From Candidatus Bathyarchaeota archaeon (lineage in GTDB: Archaea > Thermoproteota > Bathyarchaeia > Bathyarchaeales > Bathyarchaeaceae): a stretch of DNA of 38,605 nucleotides. Location of the stretch: the NCBI GenBank assembly GCA_004376295.1, contig SOJZ01000035.1, positions 1 through 38,605 on the forward strand, read 5' to 3'. Made by a program: the position numbers and the translations under genes. The notes under the pieces are model-generated. The model was not told the DNA's origin, ran no database searches, and was given only the letters and a program-made list of their open reading frames with translations. Below, one piece after another: positions 17,481 to 31,767 of the stretch; within the stretch, counting starts at the first letter, position 1, and each line of letters begins with the position of its first letter.

Positions 17481-17523
17481 CTTATAAATAATTTATCTGG
17501 TTTACAGTTATAGTAAGGTGAAG
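17481..17523 (+). promoter_or_regulatory. Promoter and ribosome binding site of the surface protein
   Basis: CTTATAAATA (17481-17490) is a good archaeal TATA box; transcription should begin near 17512. GGTGAAG (17517-17523) then lies six bases before GTG 17530 and supports that start over the GTG at 17518, which sits inside the Shine-Dalgarno itself. Confidence 0.6.
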
Positions 17524-17529
17524 ATAAGA

Positions 17530-19692
17530 GTGAAAAGAAATAGCAAAATCATGATGATAACGCTGATATCAGTTCTAACGCTTTCAATTCTGTCGATTTT
17601 CACGGCACAAACATCCCATGTGAATGCTGAATTATTTCCGACTTCTTCTGAAGATGTGGAAGCAAGTTTCGTTGTATACCCAGATGGGCGTGTTGTCATA
17701 GCAGTGGCATTGAATTCCACAGGAGTCACATTCCCGTATACCATGCCTAAAACACATGGATTTCTAGGTTTCACGAAGAGCAACGACTTAACAGTGGCAT
17801 CAGCCGATTTCACGTTTATCGTTCCACCAGAAGAAGCAACGCAATTTCCATTCAACACAACAACCGTTTCATACCTTGCGGAATGTTCGGAGAGCCTTGC
17901 CAGCACAGAGATTAACTGTTCAGTAATCTTACCCCCAAGTATCGCATCAGAATTTCCGTTTAACTCCACAGACTTCCAAGTGACAGGAGAATATTCAGAC
18001 AACACAGTAAGTGGCGCAATAACGGTTCACTCACTGCCGGGTTTTGTGTTAGGTGACTTGAATATTAACTTCCAAGGAAACAGAACAGATCTTTCCCTTA
18101 GTGGGGACGTAACAGTCGTCTATGGCAACTTCTACGGCGTCGAGTTAGATGAAGAAGAACTTGTCATGTTGCTTGAACAAGCTGAGGGCATTGTTGGAAC
18201 AGGAGAAGGTTCGCTATATGAAATGACAGATGGCACATTGGAGTGCACCAAATTGGAAACGACGAAGACTCCCATAACGGGTGGCGCTACAGTGGATTTT
18301 GAGGTGACAATTCAAAGCGAAGATTTCATCCAATCGTTAGTGTCTATGATGTATGGAGACATACCTGGCATAACACCTGGTGAGATGCCGGATGAGGAAA
18401 TGTTGTATCCAATGTTAAACGCAACGTTTTCTTCAATTGAAAGTGCGTCCTTTCAGCTGGCGTATATGTATAGTCAAAGAGAGTTTGAATTTAAACTAAC
18501 AACAGTTGGAGATGTGGAAGAGAGTAAAGCACAAATGACTTCAATGATTTCAATGCTGCCAGATGAAACAATCCCTCTGGAAGTAAGGCAGTTGATAGAG
18601 TCACTTATGAACAAGACGTATTGTTCCATGAAATCCTATGAAGAATCTATAACATACGCTGGGGGACAGGCCGATCTTGAAGGAACCTATACCATTGAAG
18701 GCGATCTAAACGCCGAAATCGAATACATAAAAGATACATTGTTGGCTTACATCGCATTGCAATCGATATCGCCGCCACAACCATCACCGTGGCAATTGTC
18801 TTTCATAAACAGAACAGAATTAGAAGTAAGCGATCTCAGATGTGGCTTCGACATGACTGAGGATTCCTTGGCACTTACTGTAGAGGGACTAGCTGTTCTG
18901 CCGCCATTAAATGATACGACTGCTACGAGCTTCACGCTTAGAGGTTTCTTCAGTCTCTTTGAAGACAGCCCTCAATCTCTTAAAGTGACAATTGCAGGAG
19001 GTAGTAATGCTACTCATACGGTTATGTTGACTAGACCCGGCACCGTACCAGAACCTGATGAAACAGTTTCCGACAATAAAGTCATGATCTGGTATGACCA
19101 ACCCCTCAGCAACCTTAAAGACATGATATTTAACATTCAATCAGAAGCAGGTGCAACCGTATCCACCATAATAAACCCTGATCTCGTCAATTCTCAGAGG
19201 CCCTTCACTATTGACGCTACTGAAAACGCGGCAACCATCTTGAATATAACTGAAGTCTCTAAGCCAGTTACCATAGTCCTTGAAAGCGTAACAGTCCCTG
19301 AAAGTGTAGAGCCACCTCCGGGAACGTTTAAGGTTTTAGGGAACTATGTAGAAGTCACCGCCAGCGAGACAGACTTCACATTCAGCGCTACAATTCGTAT
19401 GTATTACACACTGGAACAGCTGAGTGCAGCAGGACTGAGCGAAAACATGCTGAAAATCCACTATTGGGATGCCACGCTGAACAAATGGGTTGCAGTAGAC
19501 AGCCAAGTAAACACCACTGAGCATTACGTATCAGCAACGATTGATCACTTTAGCCTCTGGGTCCTCATGGGACAACCAGCAGTGGCGATATGGAATGAGC
19601 CGTGGTTCTTGGCAGTTATCGGCGTTGTTATGGTCATCATCGTAGCTGTCCTTGTCTATGCTGTTAGAAGGAAAAAACCTTCGCCACAATAA
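17530..19692 (+). CDS. Secreted, C-terminally membrane-anchored surface protein of unknown function
   Basis: About 720 residues. A signal peptide (MKRNSKIMMITLISVLTLSI onward, likely cut after HVNA) is followed by a large, acidic, beta-rich ectodomain with many Asn-x-Ser/Thr sites. One membrane helix (LAVIGVVMVIIVAVLVYAV) and a short basic tail RRKKPSPQ end it. The segment just before the anchor (IRMYYTLEQLSAAGLSENML, HYWDATLNKWVAVDS, DHFSLWVLMG) resembles the membrane-proximal module found in many archaeal surface proteins. No enzyme motif is visible. It is divergent from the MacB-type ABC operon, so it may be an export substrate or an envelope partner; that is inference from position only. 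Confidence 0.85.
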   Translation: MKRNSKIMMITLISVLTLSILSIFTAQTSHVNAELFPTSSEDVEASFVVYPDGRVVIAVALNSTGVTFPYTMPKTHGFLGFTKSNDLTVASADFTFIVPPEEATQFPFNTTTVSYLAECSESLASTEINCSVILPPSIASEFPFNSTDFQVTGEYSDNTVSGAITVHSLPGFVLGDLNINFQGNRTDLSLSGDVTVVYGNFYGVELDEEELVMLLEQAEGIVGTGEGSLYEMTDGTLECTKLETTKTPITGGATVDFEVTIQSEDFIQSLVSMMYGDIPGITPGEMPDEEMLYPMLNATFSSIESASFQLAYMYSQREFEFKLTTVGDVEESKAQMTSMISMLPDETIPLEVRQLIESLMNKTYCSMKSYEESITYAGGQADLEGTYTIEGDLNAEIEYIKDTLLAYIALQSISPPQPSPWQLSFINRTELEVSDLRCGFDMTEDSLALTVEGLAVLPPLNDTTATSFTLRGFFSLFEDSPQSLKVTIAGGSNATHTVMLTRPGTVPEPDETVSDNKVMIWYDQPLSNLKDMIFNIQSEAGATVSTIINPDLVNSQRPFTIDATENAATILNITEVSKPVTIVLESVTVPESVEPPPGTFKVLGNYVEVTASETDFTFSATIRMYYTLEQLSAAGLSENMLKIHYWDATLNKWVAVDSQVNTTEHYVSATIDHFSLWVLMGQPAVAIWNEPWFLAVIGVVMVIIVAVLVYAVRRKKPSPQ

Positions 19693-23732: not shown

Positions 23733-24971
23733 TTAGGAGAAAAGCGTGTCTACTTTTTGCGGTTCCTTAGCTAATGAAACATGTTCGTCCATTCTTAATT
23801 CACTGGTATACTGTACTTCGCCACTTATGTGACAGTTGGATTCTATGGTGATATTTTCACCGTAAACGTTTTCCGCTTGTGCCCCCCTTCTGAGCAGAAC
23901 CTGCTTTCCATAAATGTCTTCTGCATGTGCATCTCTACCAATAACAACTCGGTCTGCCTTTATAGGTCCACGGACTTGGCCTCTTCTTCCTATTTCAACA
24001 CAACGTGCCGTTACGCCTTCTACACTAATTATTGATCCGCCAACCTCTATGCACTCTTCTGCCGTGGCCTTCCTTGAGCGTAATACTCCGCCTACCTCGA
24101 TGTTTTTTGCTGAAATTTCCTCGTTGACTTCCACTTTGCCTCCTACGTCAAGGTTTCCTGAGAGATTTAGTGACTTGCCTACTTTCACTTTGCCGCCAAC
24201 GTCCATTTCGCAGCCTTCGCCGGAACCAGTTATCTCTACTTTGCCTCCTACATCGATGTCTTTGAATTTCAAGTCTCCTTCGACTTTGAATGAGCCTCCA
24301 ACATCTACGTCGCCCCCCTTGTTTTTGTTGGCTAGTCGAACTACTCCACCCACATTGATTTTTTCAAACTCTAATGGGTCTTTCGACTCAAAGCATCCAC
24401 CGACATCTACTTCGCAGATTTTGCATGTACATGTGCATTCTCCGCCTCCAACTTTTGCCGTGCCACCTACATCTAGTTTTGTGATGTTCACTTTGGATTC
24501 GATTGAGACGCTTCCGCCCACGTCTATTTTCTCTGCCTCTACTTCTCCTTTGGCTTTGAAGCTTCCACCTGCATCTATGTTTTCGGCTTTAACATTTCCA
24601 TCAACCTTTAGGCTTCCGCCAACATCAACTTTTTCAACCGTCAGATCCTTGCTCACATATAGGGCCGCGTCTACATCTACACGTTTTGCAGTCATTTTGC
24701 CGTGAACTTCTAAGTGGCCGTCTTCCACCTTAACGTCATTTTCTATTTCCAAGTTTCCATGAATTGTTACGTTGTCTTCGGCTTCTAGGTTTTCTGCTGA
24801 GACGTTGCACTCGAAGGTGTTGTCTCCTTCACAGTAAATTGTGCCGGAAACTTTCACCGTGGGTGGTGTCCCTGTTCCATCGATAACTGCACGCCGGCCT
24901 ATCACCAAGTTTCCTTCAACAAAATCTAGTGTTGTTCTGCTTCTCGAAGGGACAGATATTCTGTTGTTCAC
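23733..24971 (-). CDS. Bactofilin-like polymer-forming beta-solenoid protein
   Basis: A 412-residue protein built almost wholly from short beta-strand repeats. Twelve copies of a [I/V/L]-[D/E/N]-[V/A]-G-G turn, about 15-25 residues apart, run from about residue 117 to 335, flanked by less regular rungs such as VEIGRRGQV and VVIGRDAHA. This matches a right-handed parallel beta-solenoid, as in bactofilins, which polymerise without nucleotide. One rung holds a cysteine cluster CTCTCKIC, unusual for the family and possibly a metal site. There is no signal peptide or membrane segment, so it should be cytoplasmic. The start is GTG with GGAGGA six bases upstream (24978-24983) and a TATA-like TTTTAT further up. 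It is divergent from the KaiC-like ATPase. Confidence 0.8.
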   Translation of the reverse strand: MNNRISVPSRSRTTLDFVEGNLVIGRRAVIDGTGTPPTVKVSGTIYCEGDNTFECNVSAENLEAEDNVTIHGNLEIENDVKVEDGHLEVHGKMTAKRVDVDAALYVSKDLTVEKVDVGGSLKVDGNVKAENIDAGGSFKAKGEVEAEKIDVGGSVSIESKVNITKLDVGGTAKVGGGECTCTCKICEVDVGGCFESKDPLEFEKINVGGVVRLANKNKGGDVDVGGSFKVEGDLKFKDIDVGGKVEITGSGEGCEMDVGGKVKVGKSLNLSGNLDVGGKVEVNEEISAKNIEVGGVLRSRKATAEECIEVGGSIISVEGVTARCVEIGRRGQVRGPIKADRVVIGRDAHAEDIYGKQVLLRRGAQAENVYGENITIESNCHISGEVQYTSELRMDEHVSLAKEPQKVDTLFS

Positions 24972-25191: not shown

Positions 25192-25950
25192 ATGTCAAAA
25201 AAGATTGCTACCGGGATTAGCGGCTTAGATGAACTGGTTGGCGGTGGCATTCCTGAAGGAAGGGTCATTTTGGTCATCGGGGGACCAGGCACTGGAAAGA
25301 CCATCCTGTGCAGCCAATTCCTGTATAAGGGAATCCATGAAAAACAAGAGAATGGAGTTTTCGTCAGCCTAGACGAAAGCAAAAACCACTTCTACTCGGA
25401 AATGCAGAAATTCGGGTGGGATTTTCGCAAAGTAGAAGAGGAGAAGAAATTTGCTTTCATAAACGCAACGCGAATGTCACGAGTAGCCATGCTGAAAGAG
25501 AAACTCTACAAAGAAGAGACTCGCAGCTTACGAGGTAAACAACTGTCTATCGACAAACTAATTGAAGACCTGCAAGCGCAAATCCAGCGTACTAATGCGA
25601 AAAGGGTTGTAGTGGACACTTTGGCGGCGCTTACCTACAGATTTCCAGATCCTATAGAACGAAGGACCGCGATTGTGGATTTGATTGAATCGCTGGCGGA
25701 TTTGGGAGTTACCAGTCTTGTGACAACTGAACTCGGGTATTTGGGTCTTGAACGTAATGCCGTGGAAGAAGAATTTCTGGTTCACGGGGTTATCATGATG
25801 CAGACTCTGTTTTCAGGTGGAACTACTACGAGAGCGATACAAGTCGAAAAAATGAGAGAAGCTAAGGTCAATCCAAGCCTTGTGCCATATTCAATAGATC
25901 AAAATGGCATTGAAATCTTTCCTAACATGCCGCTATTTGGGGAAAAGTAG
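25192..25950 (+). CDS. KaiC-like RecA-superfamily ATPase, single domain
   Basis: A 252-residue KaiC/RadA-like protein. ATGISGLDELVGGGIPEG leads into Walker A GGPGTGKT (30-37), and Walker B is RVVVDTLAAL near residue 140. FVSLDES after the second strand matches the KaiC catalytic-glutamate region; no tandem second domain is present. Archaeal KaiC-like proteins are linked to signalling, gene regulation and archaellum control; the specific role is unknown. This is the catalytically intact relative of the degenerate KaiC-like domains in the two neighbouring minus-strand genes at 26039 and 30654. It is convergent with the giant TPR gene. Confidence 0.9.
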   Translation: MSKKIATGISGLDELVGGGIPEGRVILVIGGPGTGKTILCSQFLYKGIHEKQENGVFVSLDESKNHFYSEMQKFGWDFRKVEEEKKFAFINATRMSRVAMLKEKLYKEETRSLRGKQLSIDKLIEDLQAQIQRTNAKRVVVDTLAALTYRFPDPIERRTAIVDLIESLADLGVTSLVTTELGYLGLERNAVEEEFLVHGVIMMQTLFSGGTTTRAIQVEKMREAKVNPSLVPYSIDQNGIEIFPNMPLFGEK

Positions 25951-26038
25951 GCCCATAAAAACTCTAACATATTCTTACACGTACTGTCTGTTAATGTACA
26001 ACGAATCCTAAGGCTTACGCTTTAACTGCTTCCTTCTT

Positions 26039-26725
26039 TCATGTTTCTAGTCTTTCTTTTCTCAGAGGCAATTCGCTCTCTAAATATCTCTGATCATACA
26101 TTTTCCTGATTTTCAGGAATTTTTGCAAACCTTTTTCGGTTTCTTTTTCACAGATGTTTATTTCTCCTTCGAAAAGATCTAGAATTGCTTGGACTTCTTG
26201 TGAAGGATGCATGTGTGGATTAATTACTGTCAGAGTGGTGAACCTTTTTGACCTCAATTCTGGGATAAGTCCAGTTAGCCATCTCCTAGCAGAAACGGCG
26301 TGATGTTGGAGCAAGATGTCTGAGATTATTTCTATGCAGGCTCTTCTTGGACCTTTCTGTTTCTTGTCTAATCTGCGGAAAGCTGAGGTCAAGGAGATAC
26401 TGATTTCGGTAAGGTTTTCTACCCCCTTCAATTTGAATACGTTAGGTAAGGTTTCTATCATTTTGTCTGCTTGAGGATTGCAAATGAAGAGGTAGAAGTT
26501 TGATTGAAATTCTTCTGCGAGGGTCCTTACCCCACTCGCATCAATGGTGACATGAAATGTGGTTTCGCCCCGCCTTGCCCCTGTCTCGAGAAATGTCTTG
26601 ATTAGCAGGTCTCTTTCGTCGCATGAAGGTGAGGTCAGTATAACTGCATAGTTTTCAGGTATTCCACCAAAAAGCAAATTGTCAAGATTTCTATGTCCTG
26701 TAATAATGCGACCGGGAAGAATAAC
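26039..26725 (-). repeat. Duplicated pseudo-KaiC module, copy 1
   Basis: Codes for the last 228 residues of the TPR protein. Aligned without gaps to copy 2 (30654-31340), 173 of 228 residues are identical by hand count, and the DNA is also clearly similar. The upstream parts of the two genes are unrelated, so this is a domain duplication joined to different N-termini. Confidence 0.85.
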
Positions 26726-29700
26726 CTCTGAAACATTAATTGTTACAGGTTCAGGCTCACAAAACATCTGATGCCCAGTTTCGTCTACGTAAACAATTCT
26801 TGGCTTTATCGTAAATGTGCCTTTGTCAAACGACCTTAAGACAAGTCTGATTTCTTCGGTTTTTAGCGGGTTGAGTTTTTTTCCTTTCATGTCAACATAT
26901 GCGTCTTCGAAGCGGCAGTATTTGGGTTTTGCAACGGGTTCGAAGCCTGGAGGGAGGATTCCCTCAACTTTGGTTAACGAGGCCGGCTCTTTCCCTGTGT
27001 TAACAAGTTTTATCTCCAATGCAAGGTCTTCGGCTACGTTGGCCTTTTTGGGGCAAATGGTAAGATTCGCTTGGACATAAGCTTGTTCAAACCTCTCTAG
27101 ACCGACTGCTTCTTCATGGGTTGGGCCTGGTGTCGATATGCTGCTAGTACTGGAGGCGATAGACGGTGCCGACAAAACCTCTCTTAGAGAAAGCATGAAT
27201 TCGCGTTTTTGCTTTACCTTCTCTATGCTCCTTAGAACTTCATTTCTCTTCCTTAGATAGCCCGCTTTCTCAAAGAGATTTGCTGAACGGTCCAAGAATT
27301 TTTCAGCCAGAAGATAGAGCCTCAGCTTCTTCTCCGGATCAACCTCTGTTTCCGCTTTGCCCATGTAAACATAGGAGTCAAACAGGACTTGAGTAGCGTT
27401 GATCCAAAATGACTCTTTTTTGAAGCCTGCTTCTGTATAACAATCAGATGCACTTTCCATGTATTGTTTAGTTTTGGAGTAGAACTTCATGTTTCGAGTG
27501 TCTTTGAATCTGGCGCCCAATTCTAGAGCCTTACAGAAGTAGGAGTTACCGGCCGCTAAGAGACTAGTTCTTTTCTTTAGGCTGCTTTCCTTGGCTTTCA
27601 TGAAGAGCTGGGATGCTTCCGCATAAAGGGTTGGGTCAAGTCTTTCTTCTGCTAGCTTCATTTTCTGCCACGCTCTGCATAAGTAGACTATGGACTGCAA
27701 CTCTCTCTGGCCTGACTTGATTTCCATTCCTTCCAGTACTTTTTCAAATGCTTTGGCTGCCAATCCATATCTCTTAGCGCATGGCTCACAATCACCTTCT
27801 CTGTCAAATACTCTAGCCTCTTCAACTCTGACCCTACCGATACAATATTCTCTTCGCTGGTCACAGGCTCTACTTAGTTCGCTTACCTTCTCTTTTTCAT
27901 GAGGATCCACAATTTTGCCCCAAGCCGTCTCAAGAGATTTCTTAGCTTCCTTAAACATCTCAGCCGCTCGTTGGAAAACCTGTGTTGACGCTTGATTTTT
28001 GTCTTGTCTACTCAGGTGTTCAGCATGTTCTAGAAGGGCCCACGCCGAATAGTTTGGAGCGAGATAATTCCATAATGTCGAAGATCGGAGGTAATTGGCA
28101 GCTTTATTATAATGTTCCTCTGAACCAGTGTATTCTTCTCTCTCGTGGGCAAGTTTTGCCTTCTCTATTTCACTCCAAGCCTGCATGTAAGTGGCGTAGT
28201 CCGAATAGAAATCGTCGAGCCGCCGTATCTTCTCTGCAGATGTTTTGTATGCGTCAGCCGCAGACTCAAAATTTTCTGAGGCTTTCACATATTCACCGAG
28301 GCGATCATACAGCTTAGCTATATTCCAGTGAGCCTCAGCCAAGCGGCTCGGTAGCTCAGCTTTACTGTACGTGTCGGCAGCCCTTTCATAAGCTTCAATA
28401 GCCTCTTTCAAGACTTTTTCATCTTCAGTCAGCCACCACAACTGGTTCAGAATGCCACCAAACCAGTCATAGTACTCTCCAAGGACAGCAAAAATTCTTG
28501 TCTGCGGGTATAGTTTTGCCCATTCTTCAATTAATTTCAGGCAATTGTTCATGTTTGAGGCGGCTTCTTCTAAGAGCTCTCTTTTCCTTTTCTTTTTTGG
28601 TTCTGTCTTGGCCAACTCAGCTCTTATCAAAGCTTGGTAGTTTTGACCTACACCACGAACCCAGTAGTTAGACGGATACAGCCTTTCTACAATGTCTGTG
28701 TAGCCTTGTCTGTGCTTTGACGCCTCCTCAAGCAGCTTTTTTTTCGCGTCGATTTTCGTCTTCACGTTGGAAAGGGAGTACAAGGCTTTGCTCAGTTCAT
28801 GGAGGTTGGCCCCAATGGCCTCTGGGGAACCTGATCGCTCAGCATGTTCTAGGCTTTTTCGCCCAGCTTCAACGGCCCTCTCCAAGAAAATCCGCTTTTC
28901 TTCTCGGTTGGTCTCAACTTCAAATGCCAGAAAGAAGTAGTTCGCAGCAAGAGGGGTTAAAGCAACAAGATAATCATTAGCGATTATGCGGAGATGGCGT
29001 ATCGCGTCCTTAGCATATCGAATGGCTTTACTGTATCCTTCTCTTTTCTTGTCTGGATCCTCTTCTACGTCCATCATCCAACTGGTGGTAGAAGCTAGTC
29101 GATAGCATGCCACTCCCATCACATAATTGTCTTGTATGGTCATGCCTTGCTGCAACATTTTCTCAGCATGTTCTAGTGAGGATACCAAGTTGCCAGAGAA
29201 ATGGAAGGCCCCAAGGGCTGCTGCCCAGTTCGACAAACCAATCAGGTAGCTGTCTCCAACTTTCTCGGAAAGCTCCAAAGCCTTCTTCGCATAACTTAAG
29301 CATTTCTGACTGAACTCCTTCGTTTTCTCCTCCAGCTCACTAATGTTCGCGCCGTAGTAACAGTGGAGGCTTGTCATGGAATATGCTCTAGCAAGTTCTT
29401 GCTCGTCTCTGATTTCAGATAGAGCTTCTATAGCGGTTTCTCCATAGCCCACCGCTTCCTCTACAATTTTGTTCAGCTCCTGTCTATCCCACTCAATCCG
29501 AGACCTATCATATAGGCAGTATAGGAGCTCGTTACATAGTTTTCCGTGGCCTAGGCGGTCTCCAGTCTCCTCGAAGGCCCTTAAAGCATTCTTCTCCAAT
29601 TTCCAACACTCGTCCAGCAACGCTTTCCTCTCAGACGAACCCTCAGCAAGCCAAGATCTGTTGTATAAGGCCATTGCTCTACAACAGTTTACTCCTCCAT

Positions 29701-29986
29701 GCTTCTTTGAATCCTCCAGCCTCTCGAATAGCCCGGCTGTCTCTTCATAAGCCTCTAACGACAACTCCATGCGCCTCCTAAATTCTTTCTGGGTCTCGGC
29801 TTGAAACGCAGCTCGATAGAAGCAGTACCCAATCCTCTCTCGAATCTCCCCCTTCTTCAAAAATTCGTTTTTTCCGATCACGCGTGAAGCCCGCTCATAA
29901 AGATCTGCAGCCTTTACCCAATTATACTCATTCTCCAGCGTCCCAGCTTTGCCAAGAACCTCTTCTACTTTTTCTCTCTGAGGCAT
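26039..29986 (-). CDS. Giant TPR / Ig-like / pseudo-KaiC protein
   Basis: 1,315 residues from ATG 29986. Residues 1 to about 930 are helical TPR-type repeats (for example NEYNWVKAADLYERASRVIG, LGEYVKASENFESAADAYKT). After a Ser/Pro linker (near 940-960), about 970-1085 is a beta-rich domain like the Ig/CARDB type (LALEIKLVNTGKEPASLTKV). Residues 1088-1315 are KaiC-like (GRIITGHRNLDNLLFGGIP), but the P-loop reads TSPSCDERDLL, lacking the Gly-Lys-Ser/Thr needed for ATP binding. The same domain ends the HTH protein at 30654-31637. No signal peptide. The frame is open to a GTG at 30166, but those extra 60 residues are hydrophobic, cysteine-containing and unlike TPR, and have no ribosome binding site. 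Likely a signalling scaffold; ligand unknown. Confidence 0.85.
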   Translation of the reverse strand: MPQREKVEEVLGKAGTLENEYNWVKAADLYERASRVIGKNEFLKKGEIRERIGYCFYRAAFQAETQKEFRRRMELSLEAYEETAGLFERLEDSKKHGGVNCCRAMALYNRSWLAEGSSERKALLDECWKLEKNALRAFEETGDRLGHGKLCNELLYCLYDRSRIEWDRQELNKIVEEAVGYGETAIEALSEIRDEQELARAYSMTSLHCYYGANISELEEKTKEFSQKCLSYAKKALELSEKVGDSYLIGLSNWAAALGAFHFSGNLVSSLEHAEKMLQQGMTIQDNYVMGVACYRLASTTSWMMDVEEDPDKKREGYSKAIRYAKDAIRHLRIIANDYLVALTPLAANYFFLAFEVETNREEKRIFLERAVEAGRKSLEHAERSGSPEAIGANLHELSKALYSLSNVKTKIDAKKKLLEEASKHRQGYTDIVERLYPSNYWVRGVGQNYQALIRAELAKTEPKKKRKRELLEEAASNMNNCLKLIEEWAKLYPQTRIFAVLGEYYDWFGGILNQLWWLTEDEKVLKEAIEAYERAADTYSKAELPSRLAEAHWNIAKLYDRLGEYVKASENFESAADAYKTSAEKIRRLDDFYSDYATYMQAWSEIEKAKLAHEREEYTGSEEHYNKAANYLRSSTLWNYLAPNYSAWALLEHAEHLSRQDKNQASTQVFQRAAEMFKEAKKSLETAWGKIVDPHEKEKVSELSRACDQRREYCIGRVRVEEARVFDREGDCEPCAKRYGLAAKAFEKVLEGMEIKSGQRELQSIVYLCRAWQKMKLAEERLDPTLYAEASQLFMKAKESSLKKRTSLLAAGNSYFCKALELGARFKDTRNMKFYSKTKQYMESASDCYTEAGFKKESFWINATQVLFDSYVYMGKAETEVDPEKKLRLYLLAEKFLDRSANLFEKAGYLRKRNEVLRSIEKVKQKREFMLSLREVLSAPSIASSTSSISTPGPTHEEAVGLERFEQAYVQANLTICPKKANVAEDLALEIKLVNTGKEPASLTKVEGILPPGFEPVAKPKYCRFEDAYVDMKGKKLNPLKTEEIRLVLRSFDKGTFTIKPRIVYVDETGHQMFCEPEPVTINVSEVILPGRIITGHRNLDNLLFGGIPENYAVILTSPSCDERDLLIKTFLETGARRGETTFHVTIDASGVRTLAEEFQSNFYLFICNPQADKMIETLPNVFKLKGVENLTEISISLTSAFRRLDKKQKGPRRACIEIISDILLQHHAVSARRWLTGLIPELRSKRFTTLTVINPHMHPSQEVQAILDLFEGEINICEKETEKGLQKFLKIRKMYDQRYLESELPLRKERLET

Positions 29987-30187
29987 AATATTGACCAGCA
30001 AAGCCTTACACGTTGCACCCAAAAAATCTTTTGTAAACACGCACGCGAACTGCTTGCTCGTGAACGCACACGCGTAAAACAAATTGATGCTTATTGGCAC
30101 AAGAGAAAAGAATGAGTTATTAGTGTTTACTTCATTTTGCTTGATATCTGCATTCAATGAGGACACTTATTTGGAGTGAGATTCATA

Positions 30188-30195
30188 TGCATGCA
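30188..30195. repeat. TGCATGCA palindrome, site 1
   Basis: Perfect self-complementary octamer inside ATGCATGCAT, in the gap between the giant TPR gene and the zinc-ribbon gene. Four such sites (one doubled) lie only in intergenic DNA between 30.1 and 35.7 kb. Confidence 0.5.
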
Positions 30196-30234
30196 TGACA
30201 ATTGAGAGTTCAAAGTTTCCAAAGTATTAATGCA

Positions 30235-30354
30235 CTATCGTACCTCAAAAATGCTCTTTGGATTGAGATAAACTAATTTACAATCTGTATTTGGACACAC
30301 ATGTAATTCGTGGTTTTTCTTTATCATTTTGGTCCCACATTTTGGACAATTCAA
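30235..30354 (-). CDS. Small zinc-ribbon protein, 39 residues
   Basis: A short gene: TTG start at 30354, stop at 30235-30237. The product starts MNCPKCGTKMIKKNHELHVC and continues PNTDCKLVYLNPKSIFEVR. CxxC (Cys3, Cys6) and C-x4-C (Cys20, Cys25) form a zinc-ribbon-like site. Translation is strongly supported by a full Shine-Dalgarno, GGAGGTGAT (30358-30366), just before the start; few genes in this window have one this good. It lies between the two pseudo-KaiC genes on the same strand. Single zinc ribbons often bind nucleic acid or act as protein adaptors; here the function is unknown. Confidence 0.8.
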   Translation of the reverse strand: MNCPKCGTKMIKKNHELHVCPNTDCKLVYLNPKSIFEVR

Positions 30355-30545
30355 CTTATCACCTCCTTTCTTCTTTGTGGACCTGGAATCATTGCGTAGG
30401 AATTACATTTTGCGATCTAATAAGTTTTGTCTGTATGCATGTATAAGAACCTACAAAACTAATCCATGAGTGCATAAAATGTTGATTTTCTCTTTTGTCT
30501 AATCATGGTTTTTTGTCTTCATTCCGACGTAACCAAACACCTGCC

Positions 30546-30553
30546 TGCATGCA
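30546..30553. repeat. TGCATGCA palindrome, site 2
   Basis: Perfect octamer about 100 bp downstream of the HTH/pseudo-KaiC stop codon and about 190 bp upstream of the zinc-ribbon start. Confidence 0.5.
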
Positions 30554-30653
30554 TAACTCACAAGAGCCCTGACACGACTTCACAGATGTTATACATTAAT
30601 GCAACAACGGGATTCTCAGTGGTTTAGGTCCTTTGACACTCGCTTCTCTTCTT

Positions 30654-31340
30654 TCATGTCTTCAGTTTTTCCTTTCTTAGAGGCATTTTGCTCTCTAGAT
30701 ATCTTTGATTATACATTTTTCTGATTTTCAGGAATTTCTCTAAACCTTTCTCTGTCTCTTTCTCGAAGATGTTGATTTCTCCTTCGAACAGACCTAAAAC
30801 CGCATGAACCTCTTGTGGAGAATGCATGTGGGGGTTCATTACTGCCAAAGAAGTAAAACCTCTTGATTTCAAATCTGGAATAAGTCCAGTCAACCATCGT
30901 CTAGTATGAACCGCATGATGTTGCAACAAGACATCTGAAACAATTTCAACGCAAGCCCTTCGTGGACCTTTGAGTGATTTGTCTAATTTGCGGAAAGCGG
31001 AGGTCAACGCAATGCCAATGTCAGTAAGGTTTTCTACACCCTTTAGTTTGGATACGTTGGGTAAGGTTTTGATGATTTTGTCTGCTTGAGGATTACATAT
31101 GAAAACGTGAAGGTTTGATTGAAACTCCTCTGCTAAAGCCCCTACTCCCCCCGCCTCTGTAGTAACGTAAAACGTGATTTGCCCCTCTTTCGCTCCGGCT
31201 TCCAGAAACCTCTTAATTAGGAGGTCTTTTTCATCGCATGAAGGTGAGGTTAATATGACTGCATAGTTTTCAGGTATCCCGCCGAACAACATGTTATCAA
31301 GGTCTTTGTACCCTGTAGTAATGCGACCGGGAAGAACGAC
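30654..31340 (-). repeat. Duplicated pseudo-KaiC module, copy 2
   Basis: Second copy of the 228-residue module, here behind a DNA-binding domain. It has equal length to copy 1 at 26039-26725, with no gaps in the protein alignment. Confidence 0.85.
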
Positions 31341-31637
31341 CTCTGGAATCTTCACTGTTACAGGTTCTTCTAACGCGGCGAAGAACTTTTGCATGCGCTT
31401 GAATGCTTCCAGATATTCTAGGCCCCATTTTGTTGCTCTGTATTTTTTGCGGTCGCCTACGGTTATTTCTCTTACGACTCCATGTGAGACTAGAAAATTC
31501 AACGTTTTCTTCAATCTATCTACAGGCATGTTTGCTCCATAGGAAACTCTAGTTAAAGAGCATACACCCTTCCTTGCAATCACTTCTATTATGTCTGCGT
31601 AAATGTCATATTTTGTTCTTCTTCGTTCGTCAGGCAA
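30654..31637 (-). CDS. ArnR1-like wHTH fused to pseudo-KaiC domain
   Basis: A 327-residue regulator. Residues 1-90 form a winged helix of the ArnR1-like/HTH_45 type (RRRTKYDIYADIIEVIARKG, NMPVDRLKKTLNFLVSHGVV, KYRATKWGLEYLEAFKRM). Residues 100-327 are the KaiC-like module shared with the giant TPR protein; the P-loop is again degenerate (TSPSCDEKDLL), and the Walker B strand keeps only ACVEIVSDVLL. The start is TTG at 31637 with GGAG ten bases upstream and GTATAAC (31674-31680) as TATA box. ArnR proteins regulate archaellum genes in Sulfolobus, but no archaellum gene is near. The pseudo-KaiC part may sense a ligand or pair with the intact KaiC at 25192. Confidence 0.87.
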   Translation of the reverse strand: MPDERRRTKYDIYADIIEVIARKGVCSLTRVSYGANMPVDRLKKTLNFLVSHGVVREITVGDRKKYRATKWGLEYLEAFKRMQKFFAALEEPVTVKIPEVVLPGRITTGYKDLDNMLFGGIPENYAVILTSPSCDEKDLLIKRFLEAGAKEGQITFYVTTEAGGVGALAEEFQSNLHVFICNPQADKIIKTLPNVSKLKGVENLTDIGIALTSAFRKLDKSLKGPRRACVEIVSDVLLQHHAVHTRRWLTGLIPDLKSRGFTSLAVMNPHMHSPQEVHAVLGLFEGEINIFEKETEKGLEKFLKIRKMYNQRYLESKMPLRKEKLKT

Positions 31638-31767
31638 TAGGCAACTTCTCCGAGTTTTCCACTGTTATTAAATGTTATACGCTTAATCTTAATTTTGGTG
31701 GATAACCATGCACCCGATAGGTTCTGGCAGCAAGGAATTATGCGTGCATATGTGCCAAATTCTTCTT

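Follow-up and report, generated by a model that had tools for sequence, protein, structure and literature searches.

The window, a 38,605-nt stretch corresponding to contig C35 of a Bathyarchaeia metagenome-assembled genome (G000; 1.89 Mb, 99.8% complete), carries an intact KaiC-like ATPase gene at 25192–25950 (+ strand; 252 aa; Pfam KaiC, 214 bits) that converges with two minus-strand genes. As the first-pass annotation had claimed, the products of these two genes end in the same 228-residue domain, with exactly 173 identical positions, and all three ORFs were confirmed. We refer to this C-terminal pseudo-KaiC domain as pK. The first of the two genes (26039–29986, −) encodes 1315 aa from a homology-supported ATG at 29986, and its open frame extends to 30166 (ORF 26039–30166, −, 1375 codons). 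Its TPR/helical-repeat head (27107–29986, −) is real, with homologous heads in other genomes, if weak in Pfam (TPR_12, 1.1e-5; SNAP, 7.7e-6). Between this head and the pK domain (26042–26752, −; delimited by sequence comparison, profile search and an AlphaFold model) lies an Ig-like, DUF11/BatD-like domain (26786–27076, −; residues about 1031–1127), which is all-beta in AlphaFold model mfa2945bd4282 and whose homologues match DUF11/BatD.

The second gene (30654–31637, −; 327 aa; TTG start; HTH_45, 48.9 bits; KaiC, 43.1 bits; AlphaFold model m0b96eb3bc880) encodes an HTH_45/Sso10a-like winged-helix head (31365–31637, −) followed by pK (30657–31364, −; supported by sequence comparison, the AlphaFold model and Foldseek). 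A small zinc-ribbon ORF (30235–30354, −; 39 aa, MNCPKCGTKMIKKNHELHVCPNTDCKLVYLNPKSIFEVR, TTG start) lies between the two pK genes. On the other side of KaiC, and divergent from it, is a bactofilin-like gene (23733–24971, −; PF04519, 45.8 bits), the sole bactofilin gene in the genome. Elsewhere in the window, a 724-aa ORF at 17518–19692 (+) with zero Pfam matches adjoins a MacB-like permease gene.

By its motifs, the product of 25192–25950 is predicted to be an active KaiC ATPase: the Walker A motif GGPGTGKT (25279–25302, + strand, read from the ORF translation), the DE catalytic acid pair and the Walker B motif VVVD are kept across 30 orthologues. It nevertheless scored under every curated cut-off of the named KaiC equivalogs compared (TIGR03877, TIGR03880, TIGR03881, circadian KaiC and ArlH), the best scores being 147 bits against a cut-off of 307 for TIGR03877 and 168 against 408 for PRK09302.

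The winged-helix head exceeds the HTH_45 cut-off (25.5 bits) and scores 48.5 bits against the Sso10a family NF053610, under the cut-off of 60. It is 75–88% identical to stand-alone 91-residue Bathyarchaeia proteins that stop exactly where the tail starts (FFAALEE-stop). Relative to Sso10a/HTH_45 DNA-binding proteins, the head matches both families and the protein differs in the added pK tail, the stand-alone forms existing in relatives. The TTG start is also used by seven stand-alone orthologues. Fused winged-helix-pK genes were found in 17 genomes and stand-alone ones in 21, with both forms in one (G113). Most fused genes occupy the slot next to KaiC; exceptions include that of G184, and the fused gene of G113 lies ~2 kb away. 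Fused and stand-alone genes of families f1 and f4 have ~45 bp of upstream sequence in common, in which alignment reveals an imperfect palindrome, CCACCAAAATTAAG-N15-TTTAATAACAGTGG (31659–31701, −, upstream of the winged-helix-pK gene), overlapping a TATA-like box. This palindrome is a single site in the genome at ≤3 mismatches, on which ground a regulon was rejected, and we regard it as a candidate autoregulatory operator of the winged-helix gene itself. The simplest reading is that an existing DNA-binding protein, perhaps self-regulating, was brought under pK control.

The pseudo-KaiC domain and its altered ATP site

The two window tails are clearly related to each other (BLASTP 178/237, E 2e-130; 78% DNA identity over 715 bases) and to KaiC, exceeding the Pfam cut-off of 26.6 bits with scores of 38 and 43; PF06745 (KaiC) matched 36/36 pK domains scanned at E≤0.01. 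The winged-helix-pK AlphaFold model, built from 12 sequences with a mean pLDDT of 76.6, matches PH0284 (Foldseek, 2.5e-11), SSO2452, KaiC and FlaH in the PDB, and a second model, of the Ig-pK part, likewise places the KaiC-like fold after an all-beta domain. PH0284 and SSO2452, both solved archaeal KaiC-like RecA ATPases, are the closest solved folds, and pK differs from them in lacking their P-loop.

In place of G-x-x-x-x-G-K-T, the window proteins have S-P-S-C-D-E-[K/R]-D (SPSCDERD at 26609–26632 in the TPR protein and SPSCDEKD at 31224–31247 in the winged-helix protein, both on the − strand, from translation and pK alignment), which bears out the earlier reading of a P-loop turned into SPSCDE. 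Across 67 aligned pK domains this position reads TSxSCDE[RK]DLL, with D135 and E136 at 97–100%, while C181-N-P, S234-D235-x-L-L-x-H240, R246-x-W248 and M271-H272 are conserved at 96–100% (up to 67 domains). Walker A GxxxxGK[TS] is absent from pK domains and the Walker B acid position is not conserved. In the AlphaFold model, most of the conserved pK residues lie where the central strands end C-terminally, a position occupied in KaiC by ATP and magnesium. Since conserved polar residues now line the old ATP cleft, the site appears to have been rebuilt, not left to decay. Alignment and model thus present pK as a KaiC fold whose predicted ATP site has been exchanged for a different conserved polar site. 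Normal ATP binding seems unlikely given acidic residues at the phosphate positions, with some small doubt left by the K/R kept at the Walker Lys position.

Estimates of dN/dS are 0.05 and 0.16 for the two window pK domains and 0.12 between them, at a dS of ~1.1, which together with the 78% DNA identity argues for an old tail duplication under selection, neither chance nor recent. Relative to the sister genome G068, the pK tail of the TPR protein (26042–26752) has a dS of 0.09 and the TPR head a dS of 0.26; the lower value in the tail is a possible sign of recombination there.

With a KaiC fold, placement in signalling proteins and lost ATPase motifs, pK domains have the features that define the inactivated KaiC (iKaiC) class. 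MEDS and DUF835 have been termed inactivated KaiC, MEDS being a sensor domain (PMC5847659). Neither MEDS (PF14417) nor DUF835 (PF05763) matched any of the 36 pK domains scanned at E≤0.01, which rules out pK as a member of either; the likeness is that of inactivated KaiC folds in signalling proteins, and the partners differ, including REC, PAS and histidine kinases for DUF835/MEDS and winged helix, TPR-Ig, STAND, ATP-cone and CBS for pK. By contrast, DUF7504 (PF24336), found in Haloferax among the control genomes, matched 29/36 at E≤0.01 (best 1.2e-9), and is probably the nearest named relative of pK; the window pK reaches 25.7 bits against a cut-off of 27, and some other pK domains reach 28–44. 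KaiC hubs and inactivated KaiC are already known in archaea (PMC5847659, citing Makarova et al. 2017), and the pK family matches neither the MEDS nor the DUF835 model. In the literature searched, with the 2017 hub paper itself outside that search, we found no description of the pK family, its pairing with KaiC or its link to bactofilin.

Distribution and head domains of the pK family

A search with a single pK sequence gave matches in 130/257 Bathyarchaeia genomes, many being weak and probably ordinary KaiC; 45 genomes had strong matches, and a single genome could hold as many as ten. When 398 genomes across the phylum were searched with a profile, just two from outside the class came up at E≤1e-15. 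Within this family, pK is combined with ten or more kinds of head and is C-terminal in nearly all proteins. The heads include the HTH_45 winged helix, winged helix-Ig, TPR-Ig, an AAA_16 STAND-TPR protein, an ATP-cone protein, FIST_C, two CBS domains followed by Ig, an Ig domain behind a short N-terminus of helical or coiled appearance, and CBM96-Ig or a WD40-type propeller with a hydrophobic segment that, judged by eye, resembles a membrane anchor. In the last group, some proteins look like membrane receptors, with a WD40-type propeller or CBM96 outside the cell and pK on the cytoplasmic side (L157:9679-11664, L163:7813-9768 and L164:7816-9639). One protein has a tandem pair of pK tails. Two genomes from a different family encode pK with a class III cyclase domain on its C-terminal side (L156:5022-7097 and L161:1591-3360), which suggests a cyclic-nucleotide output in some Bathyarchaeia.

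On the pK tree, where many forks have low support, the head types require no fewer than 19 label changes where 6 would be the minimum, so that by this count heads appear to have moved between pK tails. TPR heads outside the sister species are 33–46% identical to that of the window, their tails 42–71%. The two window tails share 75% identity, more than the window TPR tail shares with the tails behind TPR heads in other genera (≤71%). Homogenisation of tails within genomes was considered and rejected: mean identity within a family is 0.59 within genomes and 0.60 between them, and therefore there is no general concerted evolution. A pK clade specific to the KaiC-adjacent slot was likewise rejected, as the tree is mostly unresolved and KaiC-adjacent tails are not separated. 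An apparent KaiC-ATPcone-pK fusion in G055 (L095) was set aside as a Rosetta stone, because its open frame crosses a stretch of N and it may be a scaffolding artefact.

A few pK copies are damaged by stops, frameshifts or truncations (G057, G066 and G187). In G057 the head of the winged-helix-pK gene is broken by a frame change or stop, and in G066 the KaiC slot has just Ig-pK, a remnant of a TPR-Ig-pK gene, with a stand-alone winged helix elsewhere (L066 and L068).

Gene neighbourhood of KaiC and pK

To place the locus in a wider context, we compared orthologues of the window KaiC (64–100% identity) at 33 loci in 29 genomes of families f1, f4 and f6. A convergent pK domain lies within 800 nt of KaiC at 26 of the 33 loci, 25 of them within ~111 nt, against a chance expectation of ~0.3% per locus, and pK is present in 27/29 KaiC genomes as compared with 45/257 genomes overall; neither set of counts is independent, because the loci share descent. 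The gap is typically 15–111 nt. The KaiC-adjacent slot carries different heads (winged helix, winged helix-Ig, TPR-Ig or Ig) on an unchanged tail domain. In G067, of the same genus, in G156 and G157, and in the f6 family, winged-helix-pK directly adjoins KaiC, with no TPR gene between. Three loci deviate yet keep the neighbourhood, G070 (codirectional, 407 nt), G112 (668 nt) and G141 (codirectional). The first-pass annotation had proposed looking for the three genes in relatives, and a finding that they never co-occur would have spoken against its reading. The outcome is mixed: among the loci read, winged-helix-pK, TPR-Ig-pK and KaiC occur in this order only in the window and G068, so the trio falls as a conserved unit, and the pair of KaiC and pK nearly always recurs. 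What is conserved is KaiC with a single pK gene, usually accompanied by bactofilin.

Bactofilin is the exception among flanking genes, which mostly differ between families. It is found near the KaiC-pK pair at 19 loci, the window among them, and usually lies ~200 nt upstream of KaiC in divergent orientation; at two loci it has been relocated to the far side of the pK gene, yet within the cluster, and it is missing from all three KaiC loci without pK that were examined. Outside Bathyarchaeia, two genomes of another class of the phylum (G401 and G318, two species) have KaiC and TPR-Ig-pK convergent with stops that overlap by 4 nt. Their KaiC is 35% identical, and their P-loop is degenerate in a different manner, with the SDVLL-H-TRRWL and MNSxLHS motifs kept. 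The KaiC-pK pair is therefore either old or has moved as a pair.

The association has exceptions in both directions. Two KaiC genomes are without pK (G047, 88% complete; G054, 69% complete), several pK genomes are without a close KaiC, e.g. G042 (99% complete), and most pK paralogues are located far from KaiC. Because convergent neighbours are not co-transcribed, this linkage is weaker evidence than an operon, and the mirror correlation between KaiC and the slot pK (r = 0.65) may reflect the species tree only. Terminator and sigma-type signals between the genes showed no excess over shuffles; the promoter scan is one not designed for archaea.

A candidate signalling tail for a proposed KaiC hub

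Purifying selection, the many heads and a KaiC neighbour across families and in another class support the suggestion that the pseudo-KaiC domain acts as a signalling module common to different proteins. Our preferred reading, to which we give about an even chance, is that pK is the common transmitter or receiver tail of a Bathyarchaeia signalling network whose hub is the tail-to-tail KaiC ATPase; linkage and architecture point to the KaiC-pK partnership itself. The presence of diverse sensors (extracellular propellers, CBS, FIST) on one tail argues that this tail communicates with some shared component, a role proposed for KaiC because it is the only gene repeatedly found with pK apart from bactofilin. 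Inputs would come from the TPR-Ig scaffold, the STAND NTPase, ATP-cone, CBS and FIST proteins and the extracellular propeller or CBM heads, and outputs would be the winged helix on DNA and the nucleotide cyclase heads. We consider it most likely that the tails dock on the KaiC ATPase or are remodelled by it, and the ATP-dependent state of KaiC would be read by, or set by, the attached head. In the window, the TPR-Ig protein would bring in the signals of bound partners, KaiC would serve as the ATP-driven switch, and winged-helix-pK would be the transcriptional output, probably acting on its own promoter too. In this scheme we infer the physical contact, the direction of signalling, the ligand, the operator and the role of bactofilin.

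A less probable but serious competitor is that pK is an autonomous sensor of a small molecule (or of metal or redox state) that controls its head directly, with KaiC in the same pathway and no contact between them. The strictly conserved polar site, which includes Cys, His and Asp and occupies what was the nucleotide cleft, would suit a ligand pocket of this kind, pK does occur in genomes lacking a close KaiC, and MEDS offers a precedent for an inactivated KaiC as sensor (PMC5847659), albeit one whose profile, like that of DUF835, pK fails to match. Tails on propeller, CBS and FIST heads nonetheless resemble receivers or transmitters, because the head is already a sensor, and direct sensing leaves the KaiC linkage across classes unexplained. 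Sensing by pK and partnership with KaiC could also hold simultaneously.

We consider it improbable that the tail-to-tail layout is kept for RNA reasons (overlapping 3′ ends, a shared terminator or antisense) instead of protein cooperation. The short gaps and the overlapping stop codons of the outgroup would fit such an origin, but the KaiC-adjacent head changes among winged helix, winged helix-Ig and TPR-Ig while the tail is constant, the loci of G070, G112 and G141 break convergence or distance with the neighbourhood kept, and the terminator scan gave no excess. Slightly more doubtful still is an unusual form of nucleotide binding by pK, perhaps with enzymatic activity or as a nucleotide-gated subunit in a mixed ring: the KaiC fold is kept and nearly all listed P-loop strings have K/R at the Walker Lys position, but the glycines are gone, the Thr/Ser is mostly Asp, a conserved D-E occupies the phosphate positions, and the Walker B acid has not been conserved. 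That pK domains are functionless decaying duplicates, as the few broken copies might hint, is very improbable and already contradicted by the selection estimates from the window domains and between the paralogues despite their dS, and by a signature conserved in 67 domains.

KaiC-like ATPases have been proposed as archaeal signal transduction hubs (Makarova, Galperin, Koonin 2017, mBio 8:e01959-17, cited in PMC5847659). As far as that proposal is represented in the citing paper, our reading shares with it a KaiC ATPase hub and KaiC-type domains fused to diverse signalling domains, and differs in that pK is a separate, inactivated, lineage-specific family whose genes lie tail-to-tail with one active KaiC. 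Much is still to be learned about signal sensing and relay in archaea that have few two-component systems, and the hub proposal has lacked defined partners; the present loci supply one ATPase whose gene has a conserved partner, together with a tail that can be recognised in tens of proteins bearing sensor or effector heads. We tentatively suggest, at somewhat less than even confidence, that in Bathyarchaeia and at least one other class a single KaiC ATPase is addressed by interchangeable pK tails, the tagged proteins being its clients, possibly on a bactofilin polymer. If true, this would be an archaeal counterpart of two-component receiver domains, built on an active enzyme together with a disabled version of itself, and the clients would include membrane propeller receptors, DNA-binding proteins and cyclases. 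pK would then also be a marker by which further members of the network could be located in abundant uncultured archaea, and it gives concrete protein pairs with which to begin.
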